NCBI GenBank assembly: GCA_025998875.1
Contig: AP024675.1
Coordinates: forward strand, 124,001 to 188,000
Length of the DNA: 64,000 nt
DNA from: Bacteroidota bacterium
GTDB taxonomy: Bacteria > Bacteroidota > Rhodothermia > JANXDC01
Direction of reading: 5' to 3'
Positions 1-36,344 of the stretch are shown here, piece after piece. Within the stretch, counting starts at the first letter, position 1; each line of letters starts with the position of its first letter. The translations under genes were made by a program, and so were the position numbers. Under the pieces are notes generated by a model. The model made no database searches, was not told the origin of the DNA, and saw only the letters and a list, made by a program, of their open reading frames with translations.

Positions 1-2
1 CA

Positions 3-1250
3 CTCATGGGGCTGGAGCGGGAGTTTGCCATGCTCCGAAGCCGAAACCGAGAGGGATCGGTCTCTGCGCTATATCCGGCCGGGTTGCGCACCTTTATGCT
101 TCTTTCCCTGCTGGGGGCGATGGCGGCTTTTTTGGACCGGGGCATTCCGGGAAGCTATCTGGTCATCCTGGGCGCCGTGGCCCTGCTCACGGCCGCGGCC
201 TACATCATGGTGGCCCGCCAGAGCGGGGAAGCCACCCCCGATGTCGGGGCCACGACGGAAGCAGCCATGCTGGCGGCTTTTCTGATCGGCTCCCTTGTGG
301 GGTTCGGCTTTCGCGGGATCGCCATATCCGGCGCCGTGCTCGTAACGGCGGTTCTGGCCCTCAAACGGCCAGCCCAGCGCCTGGCCGGTTCCCTGGAAGA
401 AGTGGACCTGCTGGCTGGACTGCGTTTTGCCGTGGTAGCCCTGGTGCTGCTGCCTGTACTGCCGGATCGCACCTACGGCCCGCTGGAAGTGCTCAATCCC
501 CGGCAGATCGGGCTCATGGTCACGCTCATTGTCGGGGTCGGGTTTTCTGGCTACGTGCTCGTGCGCTGGATCGGACCCGAGCGGGGGCTGGGCCTGAGCG
601 GGCTTCTGGGCGGTCTGGTATCCAGTACAGCCGTCACGCTCGCCTTCAGCCAGCGCAGCCGAGAGCAAGGGGCACTTTCCCATGCCCTGGCGCTGGGGAT
701 TGTGCTAGCCTGCTCGATCGTATTCGTGCGCCTGCTGGTGATCCTGGGATTCGTTTACGCGCCCCTGGCCAGAGCGCTGGCCCAGCCTCTGTTGATCATG
801 TTCGTTGTGGGTGTCGGGCTCGGGGCGGGGATTTTGTTCTACGAACGGCGTCGGCGACGGCAGGTCTCTTCCACCCCAGCGCGCATGCCGCTTCAGGTGG
901 AGAATCCAGCTCGTCTGTGGCCCGCCATTCAGTTCGCCCTGGTGTATACGGCGGTGCTCCTGCTGGCCAAGGCCGCGCAGACGTACTACGGAAGCCGGGG
1001 GCTGCTGCTGGCCAGCGTGCTGAGTGGGATCACCGATCTGGATGCGATCACGCTCAGTGTAGCCAGTCTGTTTCGCAGCGCCGCGATCGGATTGGAAACC
1101 GCGCGCGCCGCCGTTATCTTGGCGGCCGTAACGAACACACTGGTCAAAATGGGGTTGGTGCTCTTTCTGGGGGGAAGCGAACTCCGCTGGCGCGCCGGTC
1201 CCGTGCTGGCCGGTATTGCGCTGAGCGGGCTTTTGCTCATCCTCCTTTAG
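3..1250 (+). CDS. MgtC/SapB family membrane protein with DUF4010 (5' partial)
   Basis: Polytopic inner-membrane protein of the MgtC/DUF4010 group; the family's transport role is not settled. The first visible residues, GLERE, are the conserved motif that normally lies inside the first MgtC helix region, followed by the AGLRT segment. The true start is therefore upstream of the window, and the ATG at 6 is internal. About 415 residues are visible, with many hydrophobic helices; the DUF4010 half has the SGLLGGLVSSTAVT and SGITDLDAIT segments typical of that domain. The stop overlaps the stop of the opposing propeller gene by 4 bases. The family call is firm; the substrate is unknown. Confidence 0.85.
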   Translation, partial: LMGLEREFAMLRSRNREGSVSALYPAGLRTFMLLSLLGAMAAFLDRGIPGSYLVILGAVALLTAAAYIMVARQSGEATPDVGATTEAAMLAAFLIGSLVGFGFRGIAISGAVLVTAVLALKRPAQRLAGSLEEVDLLAGLRFAVVALVLLPVLPDRTYGPLEVLNPRQIGLMVTLIVGVGFSGYVLVRWIGPERGLGLSGLLGGLVSSTAVTLAFSQRSREQGALSHALALGIVLACSIVFVRLLVILGFVYAPLARALAQPLLIMFVVGVGLGAGILFYERRRRRQVSSTPARMPLQVENPARLWPAIQFALVYTAVLLLAKAAQTYYGSRGLLLASVLSGITDLDAITLSVASLFRSAAIGLETARAAVILAAVTNTLVKMGLVLFLGGSELRWRAGPVLAGIALSGLLLILL

Positions 1251-3316
1251 GGTAGACGCAGCAGCGGGTAGCCGATTTTTCGACCCAGCTCGTCCTCGAT
1301 CACGAGCAGATACCAGCCAGCGGGTATCTGGGCCTGCCAGCTGATCGTGTGCGTTCCGGCAGACAGACCGCCCTCCCAGGCTACGGCCAGGCGGCGCCCC
1401 AGCAGGTCGTAAAACGACAGGCGCAGAAAAGAGGGCTGATCCGTACGAAACCGCACCTGCAGGGTCTGCCGAAAGGGAACGGGATAGACCGCCTCCAGGA
1501 ACAACCCTGACGGGGTCGGAGGGGCTTCCTCCGCGTATGCGGTGCTGATCCGCTCCCGACTGCGCCAGACCCCGGTTCCCTCCGTGCCCAGGAAAAGCGC
1601 CCCATCCGGCGCCACAGCCAGAGCTGAAAGGGTTGGCCGTGCGGGGATGAGCATCAGCTCCCAGCTCTCGCCCCCATCACGGGATACGAACAGCTGTCCG
1701 GACCAGGAGGAGGCGAAGAGCTCACCCGAAGAGCTCAGAGTCAGCGCCAGTATGGGCTCTCTCACCTCTGTCGGACGCCAGGATATGCCCCTGTCAGCAG
1801 AGATGTAGAGCCCTGCCTCCGTGCCCGCATAGAGCCGATCCTGGCGGGCGCTGTAGGCAAGCACGCGAACCTGGCGTCCCTCCACCCCTGCAGCGGGGCT
1901 CCAGGAGAGGCCATAGTCCAACGACCGGTAGGCTCCGGAAGCCGTCCCGGCCACCAGGGCGCCATCGGGAAGCACAAGCAGAGCCAGCGCATCCGGACCG
2001 GAGGAGATCACCTCCCAGTTGAGCCCGCCGTCCAGAGAGCGATACAGGCCACCTTCGGCGCTCACATAGATCCGGTTGCGGGGTCCGGAGGCAATAGCCC
2101 GCACCTGACGGCCCTGAAAGCGCTCAGGCGCGCGGGAGATCCAGATCAACCCATTGGGTCCCAGCTCAAAAAGCCCGGACCCGGCGGTTCCGACCCAGAC
2201 GCGTCCACCGGAGCTTACATGCAGGGCGGTCAGATAGGGCGAAGGGAGTCCTGCCTCCATGAGCGTCCAGGAACGCCCGCCGTCCGCAGATCGGAACAGG
2301 CCCGTACCGAAGGCCAGGGCATAGAGCGAGCCGTCCGGGGCAAAGGCCAGAGCGCGTATACTGGTCGCCACCAGCCCTCCATAGGCCGGCTCCCATCGAA
2401 CCCCTTCGTCCGGAGAACGGTAAAGGCCTGCACCGAACAATCCGGCCAGGAGCGTCCCCTCTTGCGAACGGAGCAGCGCGTGCACGGCCCCACTGCGCAA
2501 GCTCGTGGGGATCCATCGGGCGCTATCCGGAAGCCACAGCCATACCCCCCCACCATCGGTGCCCAGCCACAGGCGACCGTCGGGTTCGGGAAGCAAAGAG
2601 AGCACGTAGGGATTGTTCAGGTTGGCGTTTTGCGCCGTCCAGGTTCTGCCTCCGTCCTGGGAGCGAAAAACGCCCTCGCCGTATAGCCCCAGGTAGCATA
2701 CCCCCCGGTTGCCGAGCTCCAGGAAGGCCACCTCCCGATTCCGCAGATCGAAGACGAGCTCCGGCCAGGTGCGCCCCCCATCCAGGGACCGATACAGGCC
2801 CATACCGGGCACAGCGGCCAGCATGAGCCCGTCGGGGGTGCCCAACAGCGCGCGCACGTTCCGTCCGGAAAGCCCCGCCGGTATCCATCGGGTTCCGTCG
2901 TATCGGAACAGCCCGTCGTCGGTTCCGGCCCACAGGGCGGAACCGGCAAACAGAGACCAGATCGTGCGCTCCTGGAGGCCTGCGGAGGCTTCGGTCCAGC
3001 TACGCCCGCCGTCGGTAGACCGGTATACGGCCCCGTAGGACAGCGCGGCCCAGAGCGTTCCCTGAGCGTCACGCACAAGCTGGCGAATGGCCTTGCCCCG
3101 CAGTTCCGGGGTGGCCTCATGCCAGCTCAGGCCGTCGTTGCGGGAATAGTACACCCCCCCACCCTCGGTTCCGGCCACCAAGGTGCCATCGGGATGAGAG
3201 GCCAGCGTGCGGACCGTACCTCCATAGGGCCCTGCGAGAAACTCCCAGCTCTGGGCCGAAAGCAGGATCGGAACACCCAGAAAGACGAAGAACAGAAGAC
3301 GCCCTGCGCGCTTCAT
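1247..3316 (-). CDS. Secreted beta-propeller (BNR/YCF48-like) protein with T9SS sorting domain
   Basis: 689 residues. An N-terminal signal peptide ends near AQS (about residue 23). The body holds roughly ten repeats ending in S-x-D-G-G-x-S/T-W, the BNR/Asp-box pattern of sortilin/YCF48-like beta-propellers. From about residue 600 there is a C-terminal module starting YPVPF and containing FYDLLGRRLA, matching a type A T9SS sorting domain. It is therefore expected to cross the outer membrane through T9SS and be anchored or released. The ligand is unknown; such propellers usually bind rather than catalyse. Its leader carries an 11-bp inverted repeat (3331-3360). No classical promoter was recognised directly upstream. 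Confidence 0.85.
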   Translation of the reverse strand: MKRAGRLLFFVFLGVPILLSAQSWEFLAGPYGGTVRTLASHPDGTLVAGTEGGGVYYSRNDGLSWHEATPELRGKAIRQLVRDAQGTLWAALSYGAVYRSTDGGRSWTEASAGLQERTIWSLFAGSALWAGTDDGLFRYDGTRWIPAGLSGRNVRALLGTPDGLMLAAVPGMGLYRSLDGGRTWPELVFDLRNREVAFLELGNRGVCYLGLYGEGVFRSQDGGRTWTAQNANLNNPYVLSLLPEPDGRLWLGTDGGGVWLWLPDSARWIPTSLRSGAVHALLRSQEGTLLAGLFGAGLYRSPDEGVRWEPAYGGLVATSIRALAFAPDGSLYALAFGTGLFRSADGGRSWTLMEAGLPSPYLTALHVSSGGRVWVGTAGSGLFELGPNGLIWISRAPERFQGRQVRAIASGPRNRIYVSAEGGLYRSLDGGLNWEVISSGPDALALLVLPDGALVAGTASGAYRSLDYGLSWSPAAGVEGRQVRVLAYSARQDRLYAGTEAGLYISADRGISWRPTEVREPILALTLSSSGELFASSWSGQLFVSRDGGESWELMLIPARPTLSALAVAPDGALFLGTEGTGVWRSRERISTAYAEEAPPTPSGLFLEAVYPVPFRQTLQVRFRTDQPSFLRLSFYDLLGRRLAVAWEGGLSAGTHTISWQAQIPAGWYLLVIEDELGRKIGYPLLRLP

Positions 3317-3330
3317 GAGGCAATCGCATG

Positions 3331-3360
3331 TTTTTGGTCGGGAATTTTACCGACCAAAAA
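3331..3360. repeat. Perfect 11-bp inverted repeat overlapping a stop codon
   Basis: The arms TTTTTGGTCGG (3331-3341) and CCGACCAAAAA (3350-3360) are perfect complements around an 8-base loop. No T run follows the stem on either strand, so it does not look like an ordinary intrinsic terminator. On the minus strand it contains the stop codon (3347-3349) of the upstream 161-residue gene and lies about 15 bases before the ATG of the propeller gene. Confidence 0.75.
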
Positions 3361-3832
3361 CGATGCCGGCCCGTAGCCAGGGCTCGGCAGGGGCACCGAC
3401 CTCGAAGAAGTACCTCGTTCCCTGATTCGAACGCACAATCAGCCGCAAAAAGCCGTCTCCATCCAAGTACGTATCCCCTCGACGGCCAGACCAGGACCAT
3501 GTAGTGGGACCCAGACGCAGTCCCAGGTCGAGATCTACATGCCGGGCCGTTACCCCGGCGCGACGGGCCGCACCCAGTATGCGGAAACCGGCCCCGAAGC
3601 CGATCCCCACGCCGGCCCGCGCACTGGACCAGATGCCCGGGGAGACAAACCCATGCCCCATGATCTCCGCCGTAACGAGCTCTTCGGCCACCGGTACAGC
3701 GAAAACCCCCAGCAGCCCCACTCCCGGCCCGACTCCCCCTCCAAGTTGTACAAACATGCCCGAAGTGGACTGAGCATACAGGGTACCGCTCACAAGAGCC
3801 AGCAATGTCCCCAACAGGATGTGGCGCATCAT
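3347..3832 (-). CDS. Small exported glycine-rich protein, possible outer-membrane barrel
   Basis: 161 residues, not assigned to a family. A clear signal peptide ends at about residue 21 (LYAQS). The mature part is glycine-rich and alternates polar and hydrophobic residues, as in small outer-membrane beta-barrels, but the C-terminus (IVFGR) is not the usual aromatic end. The start ATG at 3832 is preceded by a strong Shine-Dalgarno (AAGGAGGAGC). It lies 12 bases after the upstream membrane-protein gene, so the two are probably cotranscribed. The last codons lie inside the inverted repeat at 3331-3360. Confidence 0.65.
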   Translation of the reverse strand: MMRHILLGTLLALVSGTLYAQSTSGMFVQLGGGVGPGVGLLGVFAVPVAEELVTAEIMGHGFVSPGIWSSARAGVGIGFGAGFRILGAARRAGVTARHVDLDLGLRLGPTTWSWSGRRGDTYLDGDGFLRLIVRSNQGTRYFFEVGAPAEPWLRAGIVFGR

Positions 3833-3844
3833 GCTCCTCCTTTT

Positions 3845-5092
3845 CTATTCCTCTAGCTTCAGATCCCGCCGCAGGGATTCATCCCGCGAAGGTCGCCAGA
3901 TGTATTGATCCAGAAAGTAGTGATGCATGGGAAAACCGATCAGAAAGGCCAGCACCAACTCCCGCGTGCTGAAGGTGCCGAAGAGTTCATGCTGGCTGGT
4001 GAGCACAAGCGGCCCACAGCCGGGATGCACCTCCAGCAAGCAGCCCAGAAACCGAAACACAACGGCCATGGCGATTCCGCAGGCCATGTAGGTCAGAAAA
4101 CTGCGGCTGATCTTGACCGCCAGGCCGAATCGATTCGGATCCACTCCCGGACGATGGTACCGGTTGCGGTGATGAAACCAGACGATGGCGTGGTACTGGA
4201 TGTCGTGGTAGATGGTCACAAAGGCGCTGAAGGCCAGAAGGGGCGCGCTCAGGGCAAGCGAGCTGAAACCGATGAGGCTGTAGAGCGGCAGAAGCGCCAG
4301 AAGAAAGAGCAACTTCGAGCCGTTGAGCGGCAATCCGGCCCGCCATCGCTGGATCTGCCGCAGGAGGAAGACCGCGATGATCGTCAACCACGCCGCCCAG
4401 GCCAGGGCCAGCACGTAATGATCCCAGTGGAGTGCCCCCCAGTAGCCCGAATCCAGGAGCGCAGCCAGCCGTCCCCTCCATCCCGCCTCTGGCAGCACCG
4501 GATAGGCCGGAAACGCCTCCGAGAGCCCCAGCGCCGCGCGGGCCTCTGGATGCCGGATGGCAAAGGCCACAAAAGGAGCCAGCAACCCCACGTAGATCAG
4601 CGCCCGATCGATACGGAAATCCACAGGGTCGGTTTCCCCGCTCTTCCTGCGGTACAGGCTCAGGATCCCGTAGTGCTGACGGACCACATGCCAGTAGGCC
4701 CAGAGGTTGAAGAAGACCAGAAAGGCCAGAAACGGAACCCGATACGCCTCCCATCCAAGCCGGTATCCCAGATAGGAGAGGCCCAGCACGGCCGGACCGA
4801 CCAGAAACCAGGCCAGGCTACCCAGGAGCAATTTCCTGCGGCGCTGCCACTCCTCCCGATCGAAGTACGTGCGGGAATAGGTACCGAAAAAGTGCGGGCT
4901 GTCCAGCAACACCACCCAGAGAAACCAGACCGTGATCATGTCCAGGCCCAGACCGGCGTGCAGGTAGAGGAGCAAATACCCCGCCAGGGCGCCCCCGATA
5001 AACCACAATAGATCGGCGCGCGGGCTAACAATCCAGTGGAACGTGAAGCGCGCCTGCCATCGCTGTAGCGATATGATCCTGTGAACTAGCAT
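3845..5092 (-). CDS. Polytopic membrane protein, function unknown
   Basis: About 415 residues with roughly nine to ten hydrophobic helices. Conserved-looking histidine-rich segments occur between helices (DSPHFFGTYSRTYFD, YWHVVRQHYG, IYHDIQYHAIVWFHHRNRYH, MHHYFLDQYIWRP). Histidine clusters like these recall membrane oxidases, desaturases or metal-binding enzymes, but I do not recognise the family. The ATG at 5092 is chosen over an in-frame codon at 5149 because GGGGGAG lies about 9 bases upstream and a promoter-like TTG-N21-TATTATTT lies at 5149-5118. It is followed by the small exported gene at 12 bases. Confidence 0.7.
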   Translation of the reverse strand: MLVHRIISLQRWQARFTFHWIVSPRADLLWFIGGALAGYLLLYLHAGLGLDMITVWFLWVVLLDSPHFFGTYSRTYFDREEWQRRRKLLLGSLAWFLVGPAVLGLSYLGYRLGWEAYRVPFLAFLVFFNLWAYWHVVRQHYGILSLYRRKSGETDPVDFRIDRALIYVGLLAPFVAFAIRHPEARAALGLSEAFPAYPVLPEAGWRGRLAALLDSGYWGALHWDHYVLALAWAAWLTIIAVFLLRQIQRWRAGLPLNGSKLLFLLALLPLYSLIGFSSLALSAPLLAFSAFVTIYHDIQYHAIVWFHHRNRYHRPGVDPNRFGLAVKISRSFLTYMACGIAMAVVFRFLGCLLEVHPGCGPLVLTSQHELFGTFSTRELVLAFLIGFPMHHYFLDQYIWRPSRDESLRRDLKLEE

Positions 5093-5117
5093 GGGCACAG
5101 CTCCCCCTCTTTTCTGC

Positions 5118-5149
5118 AAATAATAACTAGGCAAACGGCGGGAAGGCAA
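5118..5149 (-). promoter_or_regulatory. Putative Bacteroidota-type promoter for the membrane-protein operon
   Basis: On the minus strand, TTG (5149-5147), a spacer of exactly 21 bases, then TATTATTT (5125-5118, followed by G). Transcription would begin near 5111, ahead of a good Shine-Dalgarno and the ATG at 5092. The -7 element differs from TAnnTTTG by a one-base shift. Confidence 0.5.
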
Positions 5150-5206
5150 CAGGCGGGTTTTTCGGTTCGCCAGAGGCGTATTTTTTACGGCCCCATGCTA
5201 CGCCCT

Positions 5207-6289
5207 ATGACCACACTGGACCGATATCTGGGCCGGCAGGTTGCCGGTGGGTATCTGTTTCTCATCTTCGCCTTTGTGCTCGTCTTCGTCCTGCTCGATT
5301 TTGTCGAGCACCTGGATGATTTCTACGATCGGGCTATTCCTTGGCAGGAGGTTTTTGGCCGCTACTACGCCTCCTATGTACCGGAGATGATCAGGCTGAC
5401 CAGTCCGGCCGCGGTCTTTGTGGCTACCCTTTTTGTGACCAGCCGCTTGGCTCAGCGTTCCGAGCTGATCGCCTTGCGCGCTGCGGGGGTCAGTGCGCTT
5501 CAGCTGCTTCGTCCCTACCTTGTGCTGGGTCTGCTGATCACGGCCTTCATGGAGGTCTTCAACGGCTGGGTCGTACCACAGGCCAACCGGGCCCGGATCG
5601 CTTTTGAGCAGCGCTACTTTTATCGAACCGGTTCGCTGATCGAGGCGGCCAACATTTTCCGGCAAAACAGTCCGAGGAGCTTTCTCGGAATCGGCTACTT
5701 TGACCGTCAGGAGAAGATCGGCTACAGCGTCGTTCTACAGGAGTTCGATCGGCCCTTTGGCACCCTGGTGCGACGGATCGATGCGGCGCGCATGTACTGG
5801 ATCGATTCCCTGCGGATCTGGCGTTTTGAAGAAGTCTACGAACAGCGCTTCGGTCCGGAGGGCATTCGACTCCGAGCGCTTCCTTTCTGGGACACCACCC
5901 TGGCCCTCTCCCCGCGGGATCTGGCCCGTTCCGAGCGCGACGTCGAGCAGATGACCATTCCGGAGGCGAAGGCCTATCTGGAGCTTCTGGAACGCACAGG
6001 GGCCACCTATCTGGATCGGCCGCGGGTGGATTACCACAGCAAGTTCGCCTATCCCGTGGCGAACCTGATTGTGATCCTGCTTGGTTTTCCCCTGGCCTCC
6101 GTGCGCCGACGGGGGGGCATGGCTCTGGCCCTTACGGCCGGATTGCTGCTCAGCTTCGCCTACATGGGCCTGATCAAGCTCTTTGAGCCTTTTGGCTACG
6201 AAGGGGAGCTTGATCCCCGCCTAGTGGTCTGGGCCCCTCACGGGTTTTTCCTGTTGCTGGGCATCGCGCTCCTGTGGCGCTACCGATAG
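5207..6289 (+). CDS. LptF/LptG-family permease of lipopolysaccharide export
   Basis: Inner-membrane permease of the YjgP/YjgQ family, which with LptB extracts LPS from the inner membrane and passes it to the LptC/A bridge. The N-terminal LDRYLGRQ, two early helices, RLAQRSELIALRAAGVS (coupling region) and PQANRAR are typical. A periplasmic beta-jellyroll (about residues 135-260) precedes three to four C-terminal helices. Length (360) is normal. The ATG at 5207 (MTTLDRY) fits family starts; the in-frame ATG at 5195 is the alternative. It is divergent from the membrane-protein operon and ends two bases from mtgA, which points the other way. LptF versus LptG cannot be decided here. Confidence 0.88.
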   Translation: MTTLDRYLGRQVAGGYLFLIFAFVLVFVLLDFVEHLDDFYDRAIPWQEVFGRYYASYVPEMIRLTSPAAVFVATLFVTSRLAQRSELIALRAAGVSALQLLRPYLVLGLLITAFMEVFNGWVVPQANRARIAFEQRYFYRTGSLIEAANIFRQNSPRSFLGIGYFDRQEKIGYSVVLQEFDRPFGTLVRRIDAARMYWIDSLRIWRFEEVYEQRFGPEGIRLRALPFWDTTLALSPRDLARSERDVEQMTIPEAKAYLELLERTGATYLDRPRVDYHSKFAYPVANLIVILLGFPLASVRRRGGMALALTAGLLLSFAYMGLIKLFEPFGYEGELDPRLVVWAPHGFFLLLGIALLWRYR

Positions 6290-6290
6290 G

Positions 6291-6956
6291 CTACCAGCCG
6301 TGTTGCGCCATGCGGCGCAGAATGAGGGCCGAAAGCTGATGCATCCGATGAGGATGACGGCGGTGCGGCGCCGGTAGAATGGCCACCAGCCGGGCGGCCT
6401 GCTCCCGGCTCAGGCGTGCGGCCGAAATCCCGTAGTATCGCCGGGCCGCCTCCTCCATACCGAAGAGGCCCTCTCCGGTCTCCACAATGTTCAGATACAG
6501 CTCCAGGATGCGCTCTTTGCTCAGGCACAGCTCCAGCAGGGGGGCAAGGATCAGCTCCAGCGCCTTGCGCAGGTAACTGCGATGCGTGCACAGGTACAGA
6601 TTCTTGACCAGCTGCTGGGTGATCGTACTCCCCCCGCGCACGATCCGCCCCCGACGCACGTTGCGCTCGTAGGCTTCCCACAGAGCCTCCCAGTCGATAC
6701 CCCAGTGCTCGTAGAAACGGCCATCCTCGGCCGCCACGGCGGCTCGAGGCAGATGTCGGGACATACGCTCCAGGGGCAGAAACGTGTATCGGATCCGGTA
6801 GTCCGTGCGCCCCTTGAGGCGCGCCTCCCAGCGCCGCTGGGCCATAACGGCCGTCTGAAACGGGTCGAGCACATTGAGCAGCAGCATGCCCCCCAGCAAA
6901 ATCAGGAGGCCGCCACCGCCAAGCAGGCCCAGGGCCCGCTTCCACAGGGGCCTCAT
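6291..6956 (-). CDS. mtgA: Monofunctional peptidoglycan transglycosylase
   Basis: GT51 glycosyltransferase that polymerises lipid II into glycan strands at the periplasmic face. One N-terminal transmembrane helix (about residues 10-30) is followed by the GT51 domain with EDGRFYEHWGID (catalytic Glu), RGGSTITQQLVKNL and KERILELYLNIVE. At 221 residues it has the length of MtgA and no transpeptidase domain. It starts 9 bases after greA, so it is probably cotranscribed from the greA promoter and subject to whatever the greA leader does. Confidence 0.93.
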   Translation of the reverse strand: MRPLWKRALGLLGGGGLLILLGGMLLLNVLDPFQTAVMAQRRWEARLKGRTDYRIRYTFLPLERMSRHLPRAAVAAEDGRFYEHWGIDWEALWEAYERNVRRGRIVRGGSTITQQLVKNLYLCTHRSYLRKALELILAPLLELCLSKERILELYLNIVETGEGLFGMEEAARRYYGISAARLSREQAARLVAILPAPHRRHPHRMHQLSALILRRMAQHGW

Positions 6957-6965
6957 AGCGGGGGA

Positions 6966-7445
6966 TTAGGGTCCTCGCTCGATATGCAAGATCTCGTACT
7001 CGATCAATCCGGCCGGGGCGCGCACTACGGCCACATCCCCCACGCGCTTACCCAGAAGCTCCTTGCCGATCGGAGAGGTCACCGAAAGCCTGTTGGCCTT
7101 AAAATCGGCCTCTTCCGGGGATACAAGCGTAATTTCCATCTCCTGTCCGTTCTGCCGGTTGCGGATCCGAACCCGGCTCAGGATGTAGACGCGATCGTTG
7201 GGCAGGTCGTCCTCCTCGATGATGCGGGCATTGAGCAGAATCTCCTCCAGCTTGGCGATACGCATCTCCAGATGGCTCTGCGCTTCCTTGGCCGCGTCGT
7301 ATTCGGAGTTCTCGCTCAGGTCCCCATAGGAGCGGGCCTCCGCGATGCGCTGGGCGATCTCCTGCCGCCCCCGTGTGCGTAGCTCCTGCAGTTCCTGCTT
7401 GAGCTTCTCGTAGCCCTCTCGGGTCAGGTAGACCGGCTTGCTCAT
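6966..7445 (-). CDS. greA: Transcription elongation factor GreA
   Basis: Stimulates RNA polymerase to cleave backtracked RNA. 159 residues: an N-terminal coiled coil with the conserved GDLSENSEYDAAKE tip carrying the acidic residues, then the FKBP-like C-terminal domain with SPIGKELLGK. The ATG at 7445 has AAGGAG eight bases upstream; an in-frame upstream start at 7478 would lie in the leader hairpin and is rejected. Promoter and terminator-like hairpin lie directly upstream (7553-7522 and 7506-7468), suggesting attenuation. First gene of a greA-mtgA unit. Confidence 0.96.
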   Translation of the reverse strand: MSKPVYLTREGYEKLKQELQELRTRGRQEIAQRIAEARSYGDLSENSEYDAAKEAQSHLEMRIAKLEEILLNARIIEEDDLPNDRVYILSRVRIRNRQNGQEMEITLVSPEEADFKANRLSVTSPIGKELLGKRVGDVAVVRAPAGLIEYEILHIERGP

Positions 7446-7467
7446 AGCGCGCACTCCTTCTTGAGGC

Positions 7468-7506
7468 AAAAAAAGCACACCAGCCCTCTCTTATGAGGGC
7501 TGGTGT
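7468..7506 (-). terminator. Terminator-like hairpin in the greA leader (candidate attenuator)
   Basis: Arms ACACCAGCCCTC (read on the minus strand from 7506) and GAGGGCTGGTGT form a perfect 12-bp stem with a 6-base loop (7494-7489). After a GC pair, a run of seven T follows on the minus strand (7474-7468). The orientation fits only minus-strand transcripts: the plus strand has A instead of T before the stem and no T run after it. It lies between the likely greA start site (about 7515) and the greA Shine-Dalgarno, so it would terminate greA transcripts after roughly 45-50 bases unless overridden. Confidence 0.8.
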
Positions 7507-7746
7507 TTCCCGCGTGCGGGACAAAGTTACATCACCCCTCCCCTCGAGGGCAAGCGGAAACGGCCCCACTTGCAGGCACCACCGCCCCATAGGAGGGTCT
7601 AATCGGAGCCAGAAAAGCGGCTCCGGATGGGCACACACAGGCGGCAGGCTTGAGGGAAAACGCTCTGCCCCTACCACCAGGCAGACGTAACCCTGGCGTG
7701 CGGTCCAAGGTCCTTCCCGTGCCATCGGCAGGGAGGGCAAGCGGTC
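7507..7746. other. greA-comM divergent intergenic region
   Basis: No gene seen. The left end holds the greA promoter. No match to TTG-N21-TAnnTTTG was found facing comM, although GGGAGGG lies 14-20 bases before its ATG. Confidence 0.6.
7522..7553 (-). promoter_or_regulatory. Bacteroidota-type promoter of greA
   Basis: On the minus strand, TTG (7553-7551), 21 bases, then TAACTTTG (7529-7522), an exact match to TAnnTTTG. The inferred start is near 7515, nine bases before the leader hairpin. Confidence 0.7.
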
Positions 7747-9285
7747 ATGTATGCGATGGTCTGGAGCGGATCCGTATACGGGGTAGAGGCGCTGCCTGTG
7801 CGCGTAGAGGTGCACCTGACCACGGGCCAGCCGGGCGTGACCGTGGTGGGCCTGCCGGATAACGCGGTCAAAGAGAGCCGGGAACGGGTGCGGGCGGCCA
7901 TCAAGAACAGCGGATTTTCGTTTCCCCGGCGTCACATCGTCATTAACCTCGCTCCGGCTGATCTGCGCAAGGAGGGATCGGCTTTTGACCTGCCCATTGC
8001 CGTTGGCATTCTGAGCGCCGATGGGCTGCTGCCCCCAGAGGAGGCGAACCAATACGTCTTTCTGGGGGAGCTATCCCTGGACGGAAGCCTGAGGCCGATT
8101 CGGGGCGCCCTGCCTGTGGCCGTATCGGCGCGCCACAACGGCCCGCATCGGATCATCGTGCCCGAGGCAAACGCGGCCGAAGCCGCCGTGGTCGACGGCC
8201 TGGAGGTCTTTCCCTGCCGGAACCTGGGAGAGGTGATCGCCCACCTGCGGGGCGAGGCGAAACGGGAGCCGGTGCGCGTGGATCTGCAGGCGATCTTCCA
8301 GCAGGTTCGGCAATACGAGGTAGATTTTGCCGATGTGCGAGGCCAGCAGGCGGTCAAACGCGCCCTGGAGGTGGCCGCCGCCGGCGCACACAACGTGCTC
8401 ATGGTCGGCCCACCCGGATCCGGAAAAACCCTCCTGGCGCGCCGCCTGCCCACCATCCTTCCCCCGCTCACGCTCGAGGAGGCGCTGGAGACGACGAAGA
8501 TCCACTCCATCGCGGGCAAACTGCCCGCCGGGGCGGCGCTCATCGGCCTGCGCCCCTTTAGGGCTCCACATCATACCATCTCCGATGCCGGACTGGTGGG
8601 CGGGGGATCCATCCCCATGCCGGGAGAGATCTCCCTGGCGCACAACGGGGTGCTGTTTCTCGACGAGCTGCCCGAATTCCATCGTTCCGTCTTGGAGCTT
8701 CTGCGTCAACCCCTGGAGGAGCGCCGGATCGTGCTCAGCCGCGCCCGGATGGCCGTCGAGTATCCAGCCAATTTCATGCTTGTCGCGGCCATGAACCCCT
8801 GTCCCTGCGGACACCTGGGAGACCCGCGCAAGGCCTGCACGTGCACACCCGCCCAGGTGCAGCGCTACCTGGCTCGGATATCCGGCCCTCTTCTGGATCG
8901 CCTCGATCTGCACATTGAGGTCAGTCCGGTTCCCTACGAAGAGCTAGCTTCCCGCCAGAACGGGGAGCCCTCCGAGGCGATCCGGGAACGCGTCATGGCC
9001 GCTCGGATCCGGCAACTGGAACGCTTTCGCGACCTGCCGGGCGTCTACACGAACGCGCAGATGGATACGCGCCTGGTGCGGCGCTTCTGCACGCTCTCTT
9101 CGGAGGGAGAGGAGCTCATGAAGAGGGCCATCTCCCGGCTCGGCCTCTCGGCCCGGGCCTACGATCGGATACTGAAGGTGGCCCGCACGATCGCCGATCT
9201 GGCCGGATCAGACAGAATAGCCACCGAACATCTGGCGGAGGCGATCCAGTACCGCAGCCTGGATCGGGAAAGCTATTTCCGCTAA
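7747..9285 (+). CDS. comM: ComM/YifB-family AAA+ ATPase (Mg-chelatase-like)
   Basis: 512 residues. An N-terminal S5-fold/ChlI-like domain (residues 1-170) is followed by the AAA+ core with Walker A GPPGSGKTLLARRLP (about 220), the RPFRAPHHTISDAGLVGGG segment and Walker B VLFLDELPEF. The C-terminal Mg-chelatase domain includes a cysteine-bearing NPCPCGHLGD loop. ComM is a hexameric helicase that helps branch migration during natural transformation; outside competent species the family is named YifB. The start at 7747 matches the family N-terminus. The stop overlaps the opposing Trm112-like gene by 4 bases. Confidence 0.93.
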   Translation: MYAMVWSGSVYGVEALPVRVEVHLTTGQPGVTVVGLPDNAVKESRERVRAAIKNSGFSFPRRHIVINLAPADLRKEGSAFDLPIAVGILSADGLLPPEEANQYVFLGELSLDGSLRPIRGALPVAVSARHNGPHRIIVPEANAAEAAVVDGLEVFPCRNLGEVIAHLRGEAKREPVRVDLQAIFQQVRQYEVDFADVRGQQAVKRALEVAAAGAHNVLMVGPPGSGKTLLARRLPTILPPLTLEEALETTKIHSIAGKLPAGAALIGLRPFRAPHHTISDAGLVGGGSIPMPGEISLAHNGVLFLDELPEFHRSVLELLRQPLEERRIVLSRARMAVEYPANFMLVAAMNPCPCGHLGDPRKACTCTPAQVQRYLARISGPLLDRLDLHIEVSPVPYEELASRQNGEPSEAIRERVMAARIRQLERFRDLPGVYTNAQMDTRLVRRFCTLSSEGEELMKRAISRLGLSARAYDRILKVARTIADLAGSDRIATEHLAEAIQYRSLDRESYFR

Positions 9286-9500
9286 TGTTCCGGAGGAGGC
9301 ACCGGAAGGTCTTCGGGCTCTACGGCGCGCCAGCGCTCCCCTTCTTCGACAAGCATCACGGGGATGCCGTCACGAACAGGATACTTGCGCCCACAGTCCC
9401 GGCACAAAAGCCAGCTTTCCCGATAGAACACAAGCAGACCGCCCCCGCCCCCCACACAGGCCGGACAGCACAGGATCTCCAACAGCTCAGCTCGTATCAT
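9282..9500 (-). CDS. Trm112-like zinc-ribbon protein
   Basis: 72 residues. The N-terminal LLEILCCPAC and the later CRDCGRKYPVRDGIPVML are the hallmark of the Trm112/YcaR family: two CxxC-type pairs forming a zinc ribbon, then the 'DGIPVML' strand. Trm112 proteins activate partner methyltransferases; the bacterial homologues are poorly characterised. The start overlaps the tpiA stop as ATGA, making it the last gene of the gatB-led chain. Confidence 0.85.
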   Translation of the reverse strand: MIRAELLEILCCPACVGGGGGLLVFYRESWLLCRDCGRKYPVRDGIPVMLVEEGERWRAVEPEDLPVPPPEH

Positions 9501-10279
9501 GCCTCACCTCCCTGGCTGGAAACACCGATAGCCGCCTCTACGATGGCCAGAAACGAAGAGGCCTTCAGACTCGCCCCCCCAACCAGCCCTCCGTCTACGT
9601 CGGGTTGCCGAAACAATGCCGCGGCGTTATCAGGCTTGAGGCTCCCTCCATAGAGCAGGCGCACGGAATCGGCCTTCGAACCCCAGCGGGCCCGCATCCA
9701 GGACCGAATGAATCCGTGCATCTCCTGGGCCTGTTGCGGGGTGGCGTTCTGCCCGGTTCCGATGGCCCAGACGGGCTCATAGGCGATCACCAGCTCCGGG
9801 AGCGCCTCCTCGGAGAGCCCATCCAGCGCCCCCTCCAGCTGGGCCTGCACCACCTGCCGGGCACGGCCCGCCTGCCGCTCCTCCAGGCGTTCGCCGACGC
9901 ATAGAATGGGCCGGAGCCCCCCCTGCAGGACGGCCCGGACCTTGCGGGCGATCCAGGCGTCCGTCTCCCCAAAATATTGTCGTCTCTCCGAATGCCCCAC
10001 GATGACATACCGACAGCCCACGCTCGCAAGCATGGGCACGGAGATCTCGCCGGTAAAGGCCCCTTCGGGCTCCGGATGCACGTTCTGGGCGCCCAGCTGC
10101 ACCGGGGTATCGGCCAGCGCCTGACGTACCGGCTCAAGAAACACAAACGGGGGACAGAGGGTCACCTCCACGGCCGCCGAAAGCCCGCTGACGGCCCGGG
10201 CGATTGCTTCGGCCAGGGTGATGGCCTCCTGGCGCACGGTGTGCATCTTCCAGTTGCCGGCCACCAGGGGAATGCGCAT
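9497..10279 (-). CDS. tpiA: Triosephosphate isomerase
   Basis: Interconverts dihydroxyacetone phosphate and glyceraldehyde 3-phosphate in glycolysis. 260 residues with AGNWKMH (substrate Lys), VGHSERR (catalytic His) and IAYEPVWAIGTG (catalytic Glu), and the phosphate-binding GGSLKPDN and VGGASL near the end. The ATG at 10279 shares its A with the stop of the TlpA-like gene (TGATG); a TTG one codon upstream is not needed. The downstream Trm112-like gene overlaps by 4 bases. Confidence 0.97.
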   Translation of the reverse strand: MRIPLVAGNWKMHTVRQEAITLAEAIARAVSGLSAAVEVTLCPPFVFLEPVRQALADTPVQLGAQNVHPEPEGAFTGEISVPMLASVGCRYVIVGHSERRQYFGETDAWIARKVRAVLQGGLRPILCVGERLEERQAGRARQVVQAQLEGALDGLSEEALPELVIAYEPVWAIGTGQNATPQQAQEMHGFIRSWMRARWGSKADSVRLLYGGSLKPDNAAALFRQPDVDGGLVGGASLKASSFLAIVEAAIGVSSQGGEA

Positions 10280-11613
10280 CAAGAACCTCCGAGAGCTTCT
10301 GCTACGGCGCGCTCCAGATCTGCCCCGCGCAGATTGCGGGCGATGATCTTCCCCTCCCGATCCAGCAGAAACGTGGCCGGGATGGCCTGCACCCGATACT
10401 GCCGAGCTACGGGATCCTCCCAGCCAGATCCGCCGCCTATATGGACCCAGTCCATTTGCTCCCGACGCACGAAACGCTTCCAGGCCTCGATATCCTCATC
10501 CAGCGAGATCCCGATGATCACCAACCCCTTGTCCCGATACTTGCGCCAGACGGCCTTCAGGTTGGGCAGCTCTTCTATGCAGGGCTGGCACCAGGTGGCC
10601 CAGAAGTCCAGAAGCACCACCTTGCCCCGGAACTGGGTCAGCGAAACCGTTCGCCCCTCCATGTCCGTAGCCGAGAAATCCGGCGCCTGCGCCCCCTCGG
10701 AGAGGTTTTCCAGCTCATAGAGGACATCGCCGGCCGTACGCGCCCAGCGGGTATCGGGATAGCGCTCCACAAGCCCGCGCAGCACCAGCCGGGCCGAATC
10801 CATTCGCCCGGCGGTGGCATAAAGGGAGGCCAGGTGGTATTCAAAGGCGGCCCGGGAGGCCGGGCGCCCGGCTCGCTTCAGGCCTTCGCCCAGAGACTTC
10901 CAGTACTGCAGGGCCTCTCGGGGCTCCCTGTGCTCGACCAGCGCCATGCGCACGTTCTCCAGCACGGCCCCATAGCTGGGGTGGTCGGACTCCAGTTCCC
11001 GCCGGGCCGCCTGGAGAAACGAATCCGGAAGCGCCGGGTAGAGCACCAGCACGGCATACAGACGCGCATCCCGACCCGCCTCGAAATCCTTATATTCCCG
11101 GGCGAAGGAAAGAAACGCCCGACGCTGTGCCAGCACCTCGGCCTCCAGCATGCCGGATCCGGCCGTATCGGCCTGGGCTTTCTGCAGAAGGCTCTGCTGG
11201 GCCAGGGAAACCAGCCCCATCAGCCGTTGCCAGGCCTCGTTTTCCGGAGACCCCTCGACCTGCACAGTGAATTCGGGCACCTGAATCTGCAGGCGAACCG
11301 TCTCGTTGCGCTTCAGAATCACCCATGTATTGCCCACCAGCATGGGTCCATAGGAGAAAAGCAGTACGTAGCGGTCGGGGGTGATGTCCTGGAGCGCAAA
11401 TCGGAAGGCATGCTCAACCGTATCCGTGCGGGTCTGCGCCAGCGTATCGAGCTTCTGCCGATCCGGATCGAAACGGACCAGGGTTACATCAAAAGCCTGC
11501 CCCTGCAGCGCCCCGGTGAAGCGGCCTTCGATGACCGGAGAAATCCTGCCGGTGCCGCAGGCGAGCAGTGAGCTCAGCAGGAGGGGGAAAAGCAGTCCCC
11601 AATAGCGTATCAT
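10279..11613 (-). CDS. TlpA-like thioredoxin lipoprotein
   Basis: 444 residues. A lipoprotein signal peptide ends in LLAC (lipid-anchored Cys19). Residues about 25-120 look like the beta-rich DUF4369-type domain often found before Bacteroidota thioredoxins; then a helical region; then a thioredoxin fold from about 308 with WATWCQPC (Cys342, Cys345) and the cis-proline segment QAIPATFLLD. Expected to be a periplasm-facing disulfide reductase. It overlaps its upstream neighbour by ATGA and tpiA by one base. The neighbour is a relative with the same layout but without the active-site cysteines. Confidence 0.88.
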   Translation of the reverse strand: MIRYWGLLFPLLLSSLLACGTGRISPVIEGRFTGALQGQAFDVTLVRFDPDRQKLDTLAQTRTDTVEHAFRFALQDITPDRYVLLFSYGPMLVGNTWVILKRNETVRLQIQVPEFTVQVEGSPENEAWQRLMGLVSLAQQSLLQKAQADTAGSGMLEAEVLAQRRAFLSFAREYKDFEAGRDARLYAVLVLYPALPDSFLQAARRELESDHPSYGAVLENVRMALVEHREPREALQYWKSLGEGLKRAGRPASRAAFEYHLASLYATAGRMDSARLVLRGLVERYPDTRWARTAGDVLYELENLSEGAQAPDFSATDMEGRTVSLTQFRGKVVLLDFWATWCQPCIEELPNLKAVWRKYRDKGLVIIGISLDEDIEAWKRFVRREQMDWVHIGGGSGWEDPVARQYRVQAIPATFLLDREGKIIARNLRGADLERAVAEALGGS

Positions 11614-12968
11614 GGTCGAACTCCCGTCTGTTGGATTTGCAACATGGATTCCAGCTGGCGGCGCAGCGCTTCCACTCCGGCCCCCTCGAAACGAGCTCGT
11701 AGGCGTCCTTCCGGATCGATGAGAAACCGGGTCAGCGGGGCCCGCACGTTATAGGCTCGAGCCAGTGGCCCCTGGCCATCCTGACCTTCATAGAGATGTC
11801 TGCCGGGCATCCTCCTGTCCTCAAACACCGCCGCATAGTCGAGCGAATCCCCATCCAGGCCCACGCTGATCCAGGTGAGCCGATCTCCGTAACGGGCCAG
11901 AAGGGAATCGATCCAGGGCAGGTCATTGAGATATCCCGGGGCCTGCGTATGCCAGAACTCCAGGACCACGTAGCGCCCTCGCAGTTCATCCCAGCGCACG
12001 GGTTTGCCCTCCCGATCCAGGCCCGTCACTGCGGGGGCGGGCTGGCCGGGTTGCAGGTGCTTGAGTTCATATTCGAGCCGATCCAGCCAGGACAGGGCGG
12101 CCTGTTCGCGGGGGAAACGGGACCGAAAATCCGCTATCAGGCTCTGGGCCCGGGCAACGCGGTGGCTATCGGCCAGGACTCGGATCATGTTTATCAGCAA
12201 GCCGGCCTGCTCCCGCTCTCCGAGCCGGGGCAGATGCGCCTGCAGGTAGCTCAGGGCCGCCTCCAGCCCGCGGAGGCGCAATTCGGCCCCCCAGGCCGCC
12301 TGTACGGCGGCGGCATACTCCGGCGCCCCGGGCGGGATTTGCTCGGCCAGACGCCGCAGCTGCTCATCATTCCAGTTGGCCAGAATCCGAAGCGCCTCCA
12401 GCGCGGCCACCGAGGCGGCCAGCGTGCCCGGATACTGCTCTCGGATGCTCCACAGGATGCTGGCGTACAGCTCCACAGAGCCCCTCAGGCGCTCCTGCGT
12501 CCGCCCCAGGGTGTCTTGAAGGGCTTCAAGCACGAGCTGGTTGTACTGCATCCGCGTGTTCTCAAAGGCCATCCAGGCCGTGTTCTCACGCGACCGAATG
12601 CGTCGGCTCTGGGTGTACTGGGGCAACACGGCCCGGAGCTCGATCGTATCCCCGGCGGCGAGCACAAGCCCATCTTCCACAAGCACCTGCCCATAGCGGC
12701 CAATCCAGAGCGGATACCGGCCTCGGACCGGAACACGAATCCGCATGCTGAAACGGCCGGTGGAATCGGTCACCGCATAGCCCAGCGTATCCAGGCGGGC
12801 CGAATCCGGACGCACCACCCAGAGCTGAATACCCCAGTAATTGCGCGTCTCGTCCACGGTCGTATCGACCGTGATCTGGCCCCGAAAGAGCACCTCGAGG
12901 GCGCCCCTGTCCTGAGCCCGAGCCAGGGAAGGGAGGATCAGCAGGACAAACAGACAAGCTCGCCTCAT
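11610..12968 (-). CDS. Secreted thioredoxin-fold protein lacking the CxxC
   Basis: 452 residues with a cleavable signal peptide (to about residue 19). The layout matches the downstream TlpA-like gene: N-terminal beta domain (25-115), helical middle, thioredoxin fold from about 308. Aligning LEFWHTQAPGYLNDLP with the neighbour's LDFWATWCQPCIEELP puts Ala343 and Tyr346 where the catalytic cysteines should be, so it cannot do thiol exchange there. It may be a binding or partner protein. Start and stop overlap gatB and the TlpA gene by ATGA, and the two look like diverged tandem duplicates. Confidence 0.8.
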   Translation of the reverse strand: MRRACLFVLLILPSLARAQDRGALEVLFRGQITVDTTVDETRNYWGIQLWVVRPDSARLDTLGYAVTDSTGRFSMRIRVPVRGRYPLWIGRYGQVLVEDGLVLAAGDTIELRAVLPQYTQSRRIRSRENTAWMAFENTRMQYNQLVLEALQDTLGRTQERLRGSVELYASILWSIREQYPGTLAASVAALEALRILANWNDEQLRRLAEQIPPGAPEYAAAVQAAWGAELRLRGLEAALSYLQAHLPRLGEREQAGLLINMIRVLADSHRVARAQSLIADFRSRFPREQAALSWLDRLEYELKHLQPGQPAPAVTGLDREGKPVRWDELRGRYVVLEFWHTQAPGYLNDLPWIDSLLARYGDRLTWISVGLDGDSLDYAAVFEDRRMPGRHLYEGQDGQGPLARAYNVRAPLTRFLIDPEGRLRARFEGAGVEALRRQLESMLQIQQTGVRP

Positions 12969-14437
12969 GCGGCCGACCCGTCTATTTCGGCACGAGCCTG
13001 TAGCTTGCGCAGGACCAGCTCCCGGGTTCGCTGTGGGTTGGCCTTGCCCTGGCTGGCCCGCATGACCTGCCCGATAAAGAAACCCAGCAGGCCCGTTTTC
13101 CCTCGCAGGTAGGCCTGCACCTCGGCCGGGTGCTCGTCCAGCACGGCCTCTACGAGCGGCTCGATGGCCGCATCATCGGAAACCTGGAGCAGGTTCAGCT
13201 CGCGGGCTAGCGTTTCCGGATCCCTCCGATCCTCCAGCATGACCTCGAAGATGCGCTGGGCGGCGGAACTGGAGAGCACATCCCGATCGCGCAGGGCGAT
13301 GAGTCCGGCCAGGCGCTCGGGTTCGATGGGGAAAGCGGTAATCGGCATGGAGCGCTCATTGAGCACGCGCAAGACTTGCGTCATGATCCAGTTGCTGGCC
13401 GCTTTGTAATTCTTCGTATGGGCCACCGTGGCCTCGTAGTAATCGGCCAGCTCGCGCGTCTCGGTCAAAATCCGGGCGTCATATTCCGGAAGCCCATACT
13501 GGGCCATAAAGCGCTCCCGGCGCTGCTCGGGCATCTCCGGCAGGGTGCGGCGCACGGCTTCGAGCACGTCCTCCGTGACCCGGATCGGGACCAGATCCGG
13601 CTCCGGGAAGTACCGGTAGTCGTGCGCCTGCTCCTTGGTACGCATGGGACGGGTCTCCATCCGGAACGCATCCCACAGCAGGGTCTGCTGGACCACGGGC
13701 AGACCGGCTTCCAGGAGCCTGATCTGCCGCTCGATCTCGTAGGCCAGCGCCCGTTCAACAAACCGGAAGGAGTTCATGTTTTTGATTTCGGTTTTGGTGC
13801 CCAGGCGCTCCTCTCCCCGCCGCCGCACGGAGACGTTGGCATCACAGCGCAGACTGCCCTCCTCCATGTTGCCATCGCAGATACCCAGATAGCGCACCAG
13901 CTGGCGGATCTTCATCAGATAGGCCACCGCCTCCTGTGGGGAGCGCAGATCGGGGGCGCTGACGATCTCGATCAGCGGCACCCCGCAGCGGTTGAGGTCT
14001 ACCAGCGTATGGTACGGGTCCTGATCGTGCAGGCTTTTGCCGGCGTCCTCTTCCAGATGAATACGCACGATACCGATGCGTTTGCGCGTCCCATCCTCCA
14101 ACTCGATCTCTACCCAGCCCTCCGAACAGAGGGGGGTTTCGTATTGGGAGATCTGGTATCCCTTGGGCAGGTCGGGGTAGAAGTAGTTTTTGCGGGCGAA
14201 CCAGGACCGGGGCGCGATCCGGCAATGCGTGGCCAACCCCATGCGCAGCGCGAACTCAACGGCCTTTTCGTTGAGCACGGGCAGCACCCCGGGATGACCC
14301 AGACAGATGGGGCAGACGTTCGTATTCGGGGCCTCACCGAAGGCCGTCGAACAGGAGCAGAAGACCTTGCTCTCGGTCAGCAGCTGGGCATGTACCTCCA
14401 GACCGATTACCGCCTCATAATCCGGATGTAGCGACAT
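12965..14437 (-). CDS. gatB: Asp-tRNA(Asn)/Glu-tRNA(Gln) amidotransferase subunit B
   Basis: Subunit B of the GatCAB enzyme that converts misacylated Asp-tRNA(Asn) or Glu-tRNA(Gln) to the amidated forms. 490 residues: cradle domain with IGLEVHAQL, DLPKGYQISQYE and GSLRCDANVSVR, a helical domain, and a C-terminal YqeY-like tail with KTGLLGFFIGQVM. The ATG at 14437 (MSLHPDYE) fits the family; an upstream in-frame codon at 14467 lies within the promoter. gatA and gatC are not in the window. It heads a five-gene overlapping chain ending in the Trm112-like gene. Confidence 0.97.
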   Translation of the reverse strand: MSLHPDYEAVIGLEVHAQLLTESKVFCSCSTAFGEAPNTNVCPICLGHPGVLPVLNEKAVEFALRMGLATHCRIAPRSWFARKNYFYPDLPKGYQISQYETPLCSEGWVEIELEDGTRKRIGIVRIHLEEDAGKSLHDQDPYHTLVDLNRCGVPLIEIVSAPDLRSPQEAVAYLMKIRQLVRYLGICDGNMEEGSLRCDANVSVRRRGEERLGTKTEIKNMNSFRFVERALAYEIERQIRLLEAGLPVVQQTLLWDAFRMETRPMRTKEQAHDYRYFPEPDLVPIRVTEDVLEAVRRTLPEMPEQRRERFMAQYGLPEYDARILTETRELADYYEATVAHTKNYKAASNWIMTQVLRVLNERSMPITAFPIEPERLAGLIALRDRDVLSSSAAQRIFEVMLEDRRDPETLARELNLLQVSDDAAIEPLVEAVLDEHPAEVQAYLRGKTGLLGFFIGQVMRASQGKANPQRTRELVLRKLQARAEIDGSAA

Positions 14438-14463
14438 AGCCCTTTGATCCCGCACTGCACCCC

Positions 14464-14495
14464 GCAAAATAGCACCGGTCTTCCGGCCCGATCAA
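14464..14495 (-). promoter_or_regulatory. Putative promoter of the gatB operon
   Basis: On the minus strand, TTG (14495-14493), 21 bases, then TATTTTGC (14471-14464), close to TAnnTTTG. The predicted start, near 14458, lies about 20 bases before the gatB ATG. Confidence 0.55.
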
Positions 14496-14540
14496 CCGGA
14501 CCTGTCTCGGATAGGAGTCTCAAACTGAAAGCCGATCCCG

Positions 14541-14569
14541 CCGAAATCCCGAAAATCGGGCTTTTTCGG
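14541..14569. repeat. Nested inverted repeat in the leader of the glycan operon
   Basis: An inner stem CCCGA/TCGGG (14548-14552, 14556-14560) with an AAA loop is enclosed by CCGAAA (14541-14546) pairing with TTTCGG (14564-14569). It lies about 70 bases before the GT2 start at 14639. No T run follows on the plus strand beyond the T's within the stem. No promoter was recognised for the glycan operon; the rest of 14496-14638 holds nothing else I can identify. Confidence 0.5.
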
Positions 14570-14638
14570 AGGGTTCTGTGCGATGGCATCCCCTTTGTCC
14601 GACTACAGGGCGGACCAAGGGAAAAGTTCGAGCTCTAC

Positions 14639-15424
14639 ATGGCCACGTTTGTGCTGCTTCCCGCCTATAACGAGGAACCTGCCCTGCGCCGGCTCATCCC
14701 CCGGCTTCAGCAGGCCGACCCGGAGGTGCGGATTGTGGTGGTAGACGACGGATCGACGGACCGCACCGCCGAGGTGGCCCGTTCGTTTTCCGGAGTTACG
14801 GTCCTGGAGCACGGGGAAAACCGGGGGCTTGGGGCAGCGCTTCGCACGGGATTCCGGTATCTGGCCCATACTGCCAGAGCCGAGGATGTCATCCTGACCA
14901 TGGACGCCGACGACACGCACGATCCCGCCCTGCTGGAGCAGATGCAACAGGCCCTTGCGGAGGGGGCTGATATCGTCATCGCCTCCCGATACCGGGCGGG
15001 CTCCCGTAGCACCGGGGTTCCCTGGTATCGGCGCCTGCTCAGCTACGGAGCCCGGTGGATGTTTTCGCTGCTGACCCCCATACCCGGGGTGCGGGATTAT
15101 ACCTGTGGATTCCGCGCCTATCGGGCCGAGCTCATTCAGCAAGCGTATCGGATATGGGGGGAACGGCTTATGGAGGCTCCGGGCTTCGCCTGCGCCACAG
15201 AACTGCTGCTCAAGCTGCGGGCGTTCCGACCGCGCGTTCGGGAAGTTCCCCTGCAATTGCGCTACGATCGCAAGCCGGGACACAGCAAAATGCGCCTGCT
15301 GCGCACCGTCCGGGAGTATCTCCGGTTGCTCGGCCGCTTTCGGCGACCCACAATCTGGCTTTCCCGGACCACCGGTTATATGCCCATCTGGATCGAAGGA
15401 GTTACCCTATGCGCGTGGCTATAG
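14639..15424 (+). CDS. Family 2 glycosyltransferase (DPM1-like)
   Basis: 261 residues. Probably transfers a sugar from a nucleotide donor to a polyprenyl phosphate or growing glycan at the cytoplasmic face. GT-A features: LLPAYNEEPAL at the N-terminus, VVDDGSTDRT, and MDADDTHDP (metal-binding DxD). The later GHSKM segment resembles dolichol/polyprenol-phosphate mannosyltransferases. The ATG at 14639 gives the standard GT2 N-terminus; no clear Shine-Dalgarno is present. The 3' end overlaps the FAD oxidoreductase gene by 16 bases. First gene of a four-gene glycan cassette. Confidence 0.87.
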   Translation: MATFVLLPAYNEEPALRRLIPRLQQADPEVRIVVVDDGSTDRTAEVARSFSGVTVLEHGENRGLGAALRTGFRYLAHTARAEDVILTMDADDTHDPALLEQMQQALAEGADIVIASRYRAGSRSTGVPWYRRLLSYGARWMFSLLTPIPGVRDYTCGFRAYRAELIQQAYRIWGERLMEAPGFACATELLLKLRAFRPRVREVPLQLRYDRKPGHSKMRLLRTVREYLRLLGRFRRPTIWLSRTTGYMPIWIEGVTLCAWL

Positions 15425-18783: not shown

Positions 18784-18837
18784 CCATGCCCACCCCTGCG
18801 GCCTCCCGGGCCGTTGCGCCGCGCAGGGGAAGGGTGT

Positions 18838-36230: not shown

Positions 36231-36262
36231 TTGACAAAAGATTAATCGAGAGAGTATTTTTG
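36231..36262 (+). promoter_or_regulatory. Promoter of tRNA-Asn
   Basis: TTG (36231-36233, within TTGACA), a 21-base spacer, then TATTTTTG (36255-36262), an exact TAnnTTTG. The predicted start is about 36268, four bases before the tRNA. The best promoter in the window; the rest of 36102-36230 shows nothing else. Confidence 0.75.
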
Positions 36263-36271
36263 CCCGCGCAT

Positions 36272-36344
36272 TCCCCGGTAGCTCAATCGGTAGAGCAAGC
36301 GGCTGTTAACCGCTGGGTTGCAGGTTCGAGTCCTGCCCGGGGAG
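36272..36344 (+). tRNA. tRNA-Asn (anticodon GTT)
   Basis: 73 bases folding as a standard cloverleaf: acceptor TCCCCGG/CCGGGGA with discriminator G, D-arm GCTC/GAGC, anticodon stem AGCGG/CCGCT with loop CTGTTAA (anticodon GTT at its centre), and T-arm GCAGG/CCTGC with loop TTCGAGT. The 3' CCA is not encoded. It fits with gatB in the same window, since Asp-tRNA(Asn) amidation is one role of GatCAB. Confidence 0.97.

Follow-up and report, generated by a model that had tools for sequence, protein, structure and literature searches.

Why would an intrinsic terminator stand between the promoter of a gene and the start codon of that same gene? The question is raised by the leader of greA, which encodes the elongation factor GreA, in a 64,000-nucleotide stretch of a Bacteroidota bacterium (contig AP024675.1, positions 124,001 to 188,000); this whole stretch is called the window here. 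A preliminary description of the DNA had likened this leader to the greA leader of Escherichia coli, which, with its GraL RNAs, was reportedly described by Potrykus in 2010. Our answer, to which we give a probability of about 0.55, is that the hairpin is a minimal transcription attenuator of the greA leader that is present throughout the phylum and regulated through RNA polymerase and its factors. The more limited claim that transcription terminates at the hairpin in the cell, with read-through feeding greA, is highly probable. Attenuation, termination and regulation of greA are read here from sequence and not from transcripts.

The perfect stem of 12 base pairs and the run of seven T (T7), which the preliminary description had placed on the minus strand between the greA promoter and the ATG, were confirmed in coordinates and in sequence (Table 1). 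On that strand, the promoter stretch 7553-7522 reads TTGCCCTCGAGGGGAGGGGTGATGTAACTTTG, and 15 bases separate the end of the -7 box (7522) from the hairpin. Its stem is the longest among the 23 terminator-like hits in positions 1-20000 of the window, and the leader RNA folds with a z-score of -4.6 to -4.7, none of 200 shuffles being equally stable. The upstream comM-like gene points away on the plus strand, so no transcript runs into the hairpin that would have to be ended, just as had been argued.

Terminator-like hairpins were detected by requiring at least six T in eight positions and a single hairpin with a folding free energy (dG) of -8 kcal/mol or lower that ends at most 3 nucleotides (nt) before the T-run; these thresholds were our own choice. 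We located greA in 60 relatives, 392 genomes of the phylum and 30 genomes filling in other families, plus named contigs, and read the leaders of 130 genomes plus the named loci, with start codons and control genes assigned automatically. After two genomes with a missing start were dropped, the hairpin was found ahead of greA in 110 of 128 genomes and in 47 of 52 families, the latter being the safer number since genomes of the same family are not independent. In this phylum sample the T-run starts at a median of 38 nt before the ATG. The first 100 greA leaders contained 86 with hairpin and T-run, 67 of them at a dG of -12 or lower. The comparison of greA leaders that the preliminary description had proposed therefore bears out the hairpin, and the controls were near zero: 4/56 divergent genes (1/56 at the stricter dG), 6/51 codirectional genes (5/51) and 33/500 dinucleotide shuffles (7/500). 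An orthologue control in the same set of about 30 genomes gave 28/31 for greA, 0/29 for tpiA and 1/29 for comM. Both species of the same genus carry the hairpin, the second (locus L002) with the promoter TTG-N21-TAATTTTG at the same place, and among the named contigs most Bacteroidales and some Ignavibacteria and Chlorobiota have it too.

Table 1. Features of the greA leader and its neighbouring genes in the window.
Feature	Position	Strand	Description	Basis
greA promoter	7522..7553	-	Bacteroidota type, TTG (-33)-N21-TAACTTTG (-7)	two exact matches in 64 kb, 0.07 expected
Terminator hairpin	7477..7506	-	ACACCAGCCCTC-ATAAGA-GAGGGCTGGTGT; 12 perfect pairs, 6-nt loop, dG about -24 kcal/mol	predicted fold
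T7 run	7468..7474	-	predicted termination site; preceded by GC after the hairpin	sequence
Predicted leader RNA	7468..7517	-	about 48 nt, if terminated	inferred transcription start about 5 nt past the -7 box; end at the T-run
Shine-Dalgarno-like site	7454..7460	-	GAAGGAG of greA	sequence
greA	6966..7445	-	159 amino acids, ATG at 7445; both Gre domains	domain and sequence analysis
mtgA-like gene	6291..6956	-	peptidoglycan glycosyltransferase, 9 nt past greA	name from the preliminary description, without a family-library run
comM-like gene	7747..9285	+	Mg-chelatase/AAA protein; divergent neighbour, outside the element	domain and sequence analysis

The detector was also applied outside these leaders. 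In the Firmicutes loci the 100 nt next to greA yielded no call, so it does not fire on greA leaders in general; other phyla were not evenly sampled with it. Two Bacillus-type leaders (L102 and L113; L-numbers denote individual greA loci in the survey and f-numbers denote families) have weak hairpins below the cut-off. Among seven loci of GreA-like paralogues there was one call, at L211, where the start codon is doubtful, and none at the other six.

The genes upstream of greA bear on whether the hairpin could instead be the 3' terminator of the preceding gene, with the greA promoter further down. A codirectional upstream gene does lie 85-300 nt away in many families. However, the upstream neighbour varies among comM, TetR, CitMHS (citrate-transporter-like), Fe-S assembly, SpoU methylase, Fmt, MFS, S66 peptidase (LD-carboxypeptidase) and RibBA genes and is found in either orientation with the hairpin still present, and in the window and several other families it diverges. 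Moreover, the T-run is too close to the ATG, at the median distance given above, for an intervening promoter, exact -7 boxes are located upstream of the hairpin, and the hairpin is missing where greA lies about 20 nt behind another gene (f10 and L147). A terminator of the upstream gene was thus ruled out in the window by gene orientation and elsewhere by position, and we regard it as extremely improbable. The hairpin belongs to greA and not to its neighbours.

The orientation of the T-run was also informative: 86 leaders have it on the greA strand and 12 on the other. A terminator for the opposite strand was rejected because the T-run is rare there. The same bias is the signature of a terminator and argues against a role after transcription, in which the hairpin would shield the mRNA at its 5' end or cover the ribosome-binding site. 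The message does begin close to the hairpin, and in the predicted read-through mRNA of the window the T7 run pairs weakly with the Shine-Dalgarno region (AAGAAGGAG), as such a role would have it, but this pairing appears in the fold of the window genome only, and the leader of the same-genus species has no such match between T7 and GAAGGAG. We consider a post-transcriptional role very unlikely.

Pairing is preserved by compensatory changes while the stem sequences turn over between families. The stem reads, for example, ACACCAGCCCTC in the window and CGCCGCAGCC in f3, f6 and f11; Muribaculaceae have GGGUCUC...GAGAUUC and Prevotella-like genomes GGGUUCC...GGAAUUC. Pairing holds in 94% of the cells of the Bacteroidales set, 6 of 10 pairs have changed on both sides, and none of the 500 shuffles and no slid register reaches its covariation. 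The GC-rich set (n = 13) also showed 94% pairing, with 5 of 10 pairs changed on both sides, above shuffles and slides. Related sequences may exceed shuffles without any structure, but the covariation is in line with the controls in slid registers and with the detector count across the phylum. RNAalifold found no consensus in a Balneolaceae-type set, in which MAFFT had misaligned the short variable stems, and this set was left out of the covariation evidence.

This turnover also bears on the reading in which the locus chiefly makes the short RNA, which would act in trans as a small RNA (sRNA) sharing the greA promoter. GraL of E. coli has a trans effect on nudE mRNA besides its cis action (PMC6829880), and sRNAs derived from 5' untranslated regions occur in Bacteroides (PMC7366714). 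Between families, however, only the fold and the T-run are kept and not the RNA sequence, so a shared trans target is unlikely, and this reading is very improbable; a secondary trans role of the leader RNA in particular lineages is possible.

Several features of individual stems were recorded beside this analysis. The base of the Bacteroidales hairpin (GGGU with AUUC) retains a G-U wobble in many species (leaders L041-L065), so the sequence of the 5' arm may be held for a second reason. The families f3, f6 and f11 (L010, L016, L022, L025, L026, L114) have in common a stem, CGCCGCAGCC...GGCCGTGGCG, that always contains an A-C mismatch and a G-U pair, in contrast to the perfect stem of the window, and stems of the AAGTCAGYC...GGGCTGACTTTT type are common to f23, f26, f39 and f49 (L218, L223, L224, L227, L228, L231). 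In f39 two terminator-like hairpins stand in tandem ahead of greA. In Hoylesella pleuritidis, the strand opposite to greA carries, about 300 bases upstream of the gene, a member of the Rfam FopS paralogous sRNA family (RF04319; L108:1136-1202, minus strand). No Rfam match above the gathering score was obtained at the greA leaders of the window or of 20 relatives' loci, and a known RNA family was ruled out for the leader. A repeat or mobile hairpin element was ruled out by the single copy of the element in the 2.35-Mb genome, and a phage origin was ruled out as no match was found.

The position of the promoter limits what could control the hairpin. Of 142 leaders, 46 have an exact TAnnTTTG, the Bacteroidota -7 box, in the 50 nt ahead of the hairpin, where 6.4 would be expected. 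With promoters of this type, transcription is taken to start 5 nt past the -7 box. The terminated RNA would then measure 28-79 nt (median 54) in the 46 promoter-anchored leaders and 48 nt in the window, a predicted length within the 45-50 bases put forward in the preliminary description. In 14 of the 46 leaders the hairpin starts at most 11 nt from the box, with nearly no RNA before it, so a riboswitch, an antiterminator or a leader peptide cannot be general. A minimal open reading frame could fit in seven, all of them Bacteroidales with longer leaders. The segment before the terminator folds no better than shuffles, and no antiterminator fold was seen. The whole pattern TTG-N21-TAnnTTTG has two copies in the 64-kb window; the second, at 36231-36262 on the plus strand, is 10 bases ahead of a tRNA gene (36272-36344).

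In the mechanism we propose, transcription would start about 10 nt ahead of a strong intrinsic terminator, and part of it, probably most, would stop at the hairpin and release the short RNA, while the read-through fraction would supply greA mRNA and, in the window, probably mtgA as well. Because so little RNA precedes the hairpin, the read-through level would most likely be set by the state of the polymerase and the elongation factors, and not by a ligand, a leader peptide or an antiterminator. In E. coli more GreA leads to more termination, so by analogy GreA would be the likeliest controlling factor in the Bacteroidota leader, closing a negative feedback loop; we put this forward tentatively, at somewhat less than an even chance. 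In the window greA and the mtgA-like gene probably share one transcript. The suggestion that attenuation also affects mtgA would hold only where the gene order is greA-mtgA, which is kept in f1, f3, f6, f11 and f13 and was not found in f4, so that, if the mechanism is true, mtgA would come under attenuation in part of the lineages only.

The main rival is a passive terminator that holds greA expression down as a constant brake and responds neither to GreA nor to any other signal. Conservation of structure with turnover of sequence is what a plain terminator needs, and no antiterminator is visible. However, a weaker promoter would suffice for this purpose, yet the hairpin has been kept in nearly all families surveyed, and the E. 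coli equivalent responds to GreA. We judge a purely passive brake unlikely, though less so than the other alternatives.

Some points weigh against a regulated attenuator in the greA leader across the phylum. The detector made no call in the sampled genomes of f10, f14, f33, f42 and f51. In f51 and most f10 genomes a codirectional gene ends shortly before greA, at 19-27 nt in six of the seven f10 genomes and at 6 nt in L217; because of this closeness, greA in f51, in most f10 genomes and in L147 (f31) is probably read from the promoter of the preceding gene. Degenerate hairpins with broken T-runs were seen by eye in f33 and f42. In many families the hairpin could also terminate a codirectional upstream gene. 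Finally, the same GreA control as in E. coli cannot be assumed, because GreA control there is sensitive to sequence in the hairpin arms and at positions +1 to +18 (PMC6829880), while the Bacteroidota sequence turns over.

Attenuators in greA leaders are known in Proteobacteria, Bacilli and Clostridia. We found no report of them in Bacteroidota among open-licence papers, which is weak evidence; Bacteroidetes are not named in the main text of the survey by Naville and Gautheret (PMC2965389), and greA is absent from the main text of two Bacteroides transcriptome papers (PMC7366714 among those cited). As far as we found, GraL-mediated autoregulation of GreA has been worked out in one species. The same layout across a distant phylum suggests a general arrangement and a widespread way of limiting GreA levels. 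Stem sequence is free while the hairpin, the T-run and the close promoter are kept, which points to the polymerase and not to an RNA sensor. Going one step further, and with more caution than for GreA control itself, the bare promoter-proximal terminator may serve throughout the phylum as a direct gauge of GreA activity, that is, of RNA polymerase backtracking, with the polymerase as the sensor; it would be either a very old arrangement that has drifted or the outcome of repeated independent evolution. The many natural variants among the Bacteroidota leaders could be used to test how an elongation factor controls termination in its own gene.

In E. coli, the GraL RNAs arise in vivo from imprecise termination and are 37-59 nt long, and only about one-third of the transcripts read through the leader (Dylewski 2019, PMC6829880). 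Without GreA, GraL decreases about 4-fold and a reporter increases about 3.5-fold, and the effect requires the catalytic residue D41 of GreA and the leader, but not the promoter; the authors call this autoregulation hard to classify (PMC6829880). The greA product of the window has the tip GDLSENSEY, with the acidic residues D42 and E45 both present. When analyzed with the same detector, the E. coli K-12 greA leader gave a dG of -18.6 and a T7 run, with dacB divergent. It thus shares with the window a promoter, a very short leader, an intrinsic terminator with T7, a divergent upstream gene and a similar RNA length, as predicted for the window, and this match, together with the covariation and the promoter just upstream, supports the GraL-like arrangement that had been suggested for this distant phylum. 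The T-run, however, starts 101 nt before the ATG in E. coli and 29 nt before it in the window, E. coli has two overlapping promoters, and GreA control has been shown only there. The leaders have no evident sequence similarity, and their stems are unrelated by inspection.

In their survey of 302 genomes, Naville and Gautheret (2010, PMC2965389) placed the 5' terminator of greA seventh in the ranking of attenuated gene families. Their greA-leader and rnk-leader resemble the Bacteroidota leaders in having a 5' terminator, upstream of greA, but a visible antiterminator was reported for them, whereas about one-third of the promoter-anchored Bacteroidota leaders have no room for one. The GraL mechanism as described in PMC6829880 does not require an antiterminator, so the feature is classified as a greA-leader attenuator by kind, not by sequence homology, and not as the structure of Naville and Gautheret. 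The rimP-leader (PMC2965389) differs in its conserved GGGc...gCCC stem motif, while the greA stems of Bacteroidota differ between families; it is alike in being a bare terminator without a visible antiterminator, placed ahead of the operon for NusA, a factor of elongation and termination.
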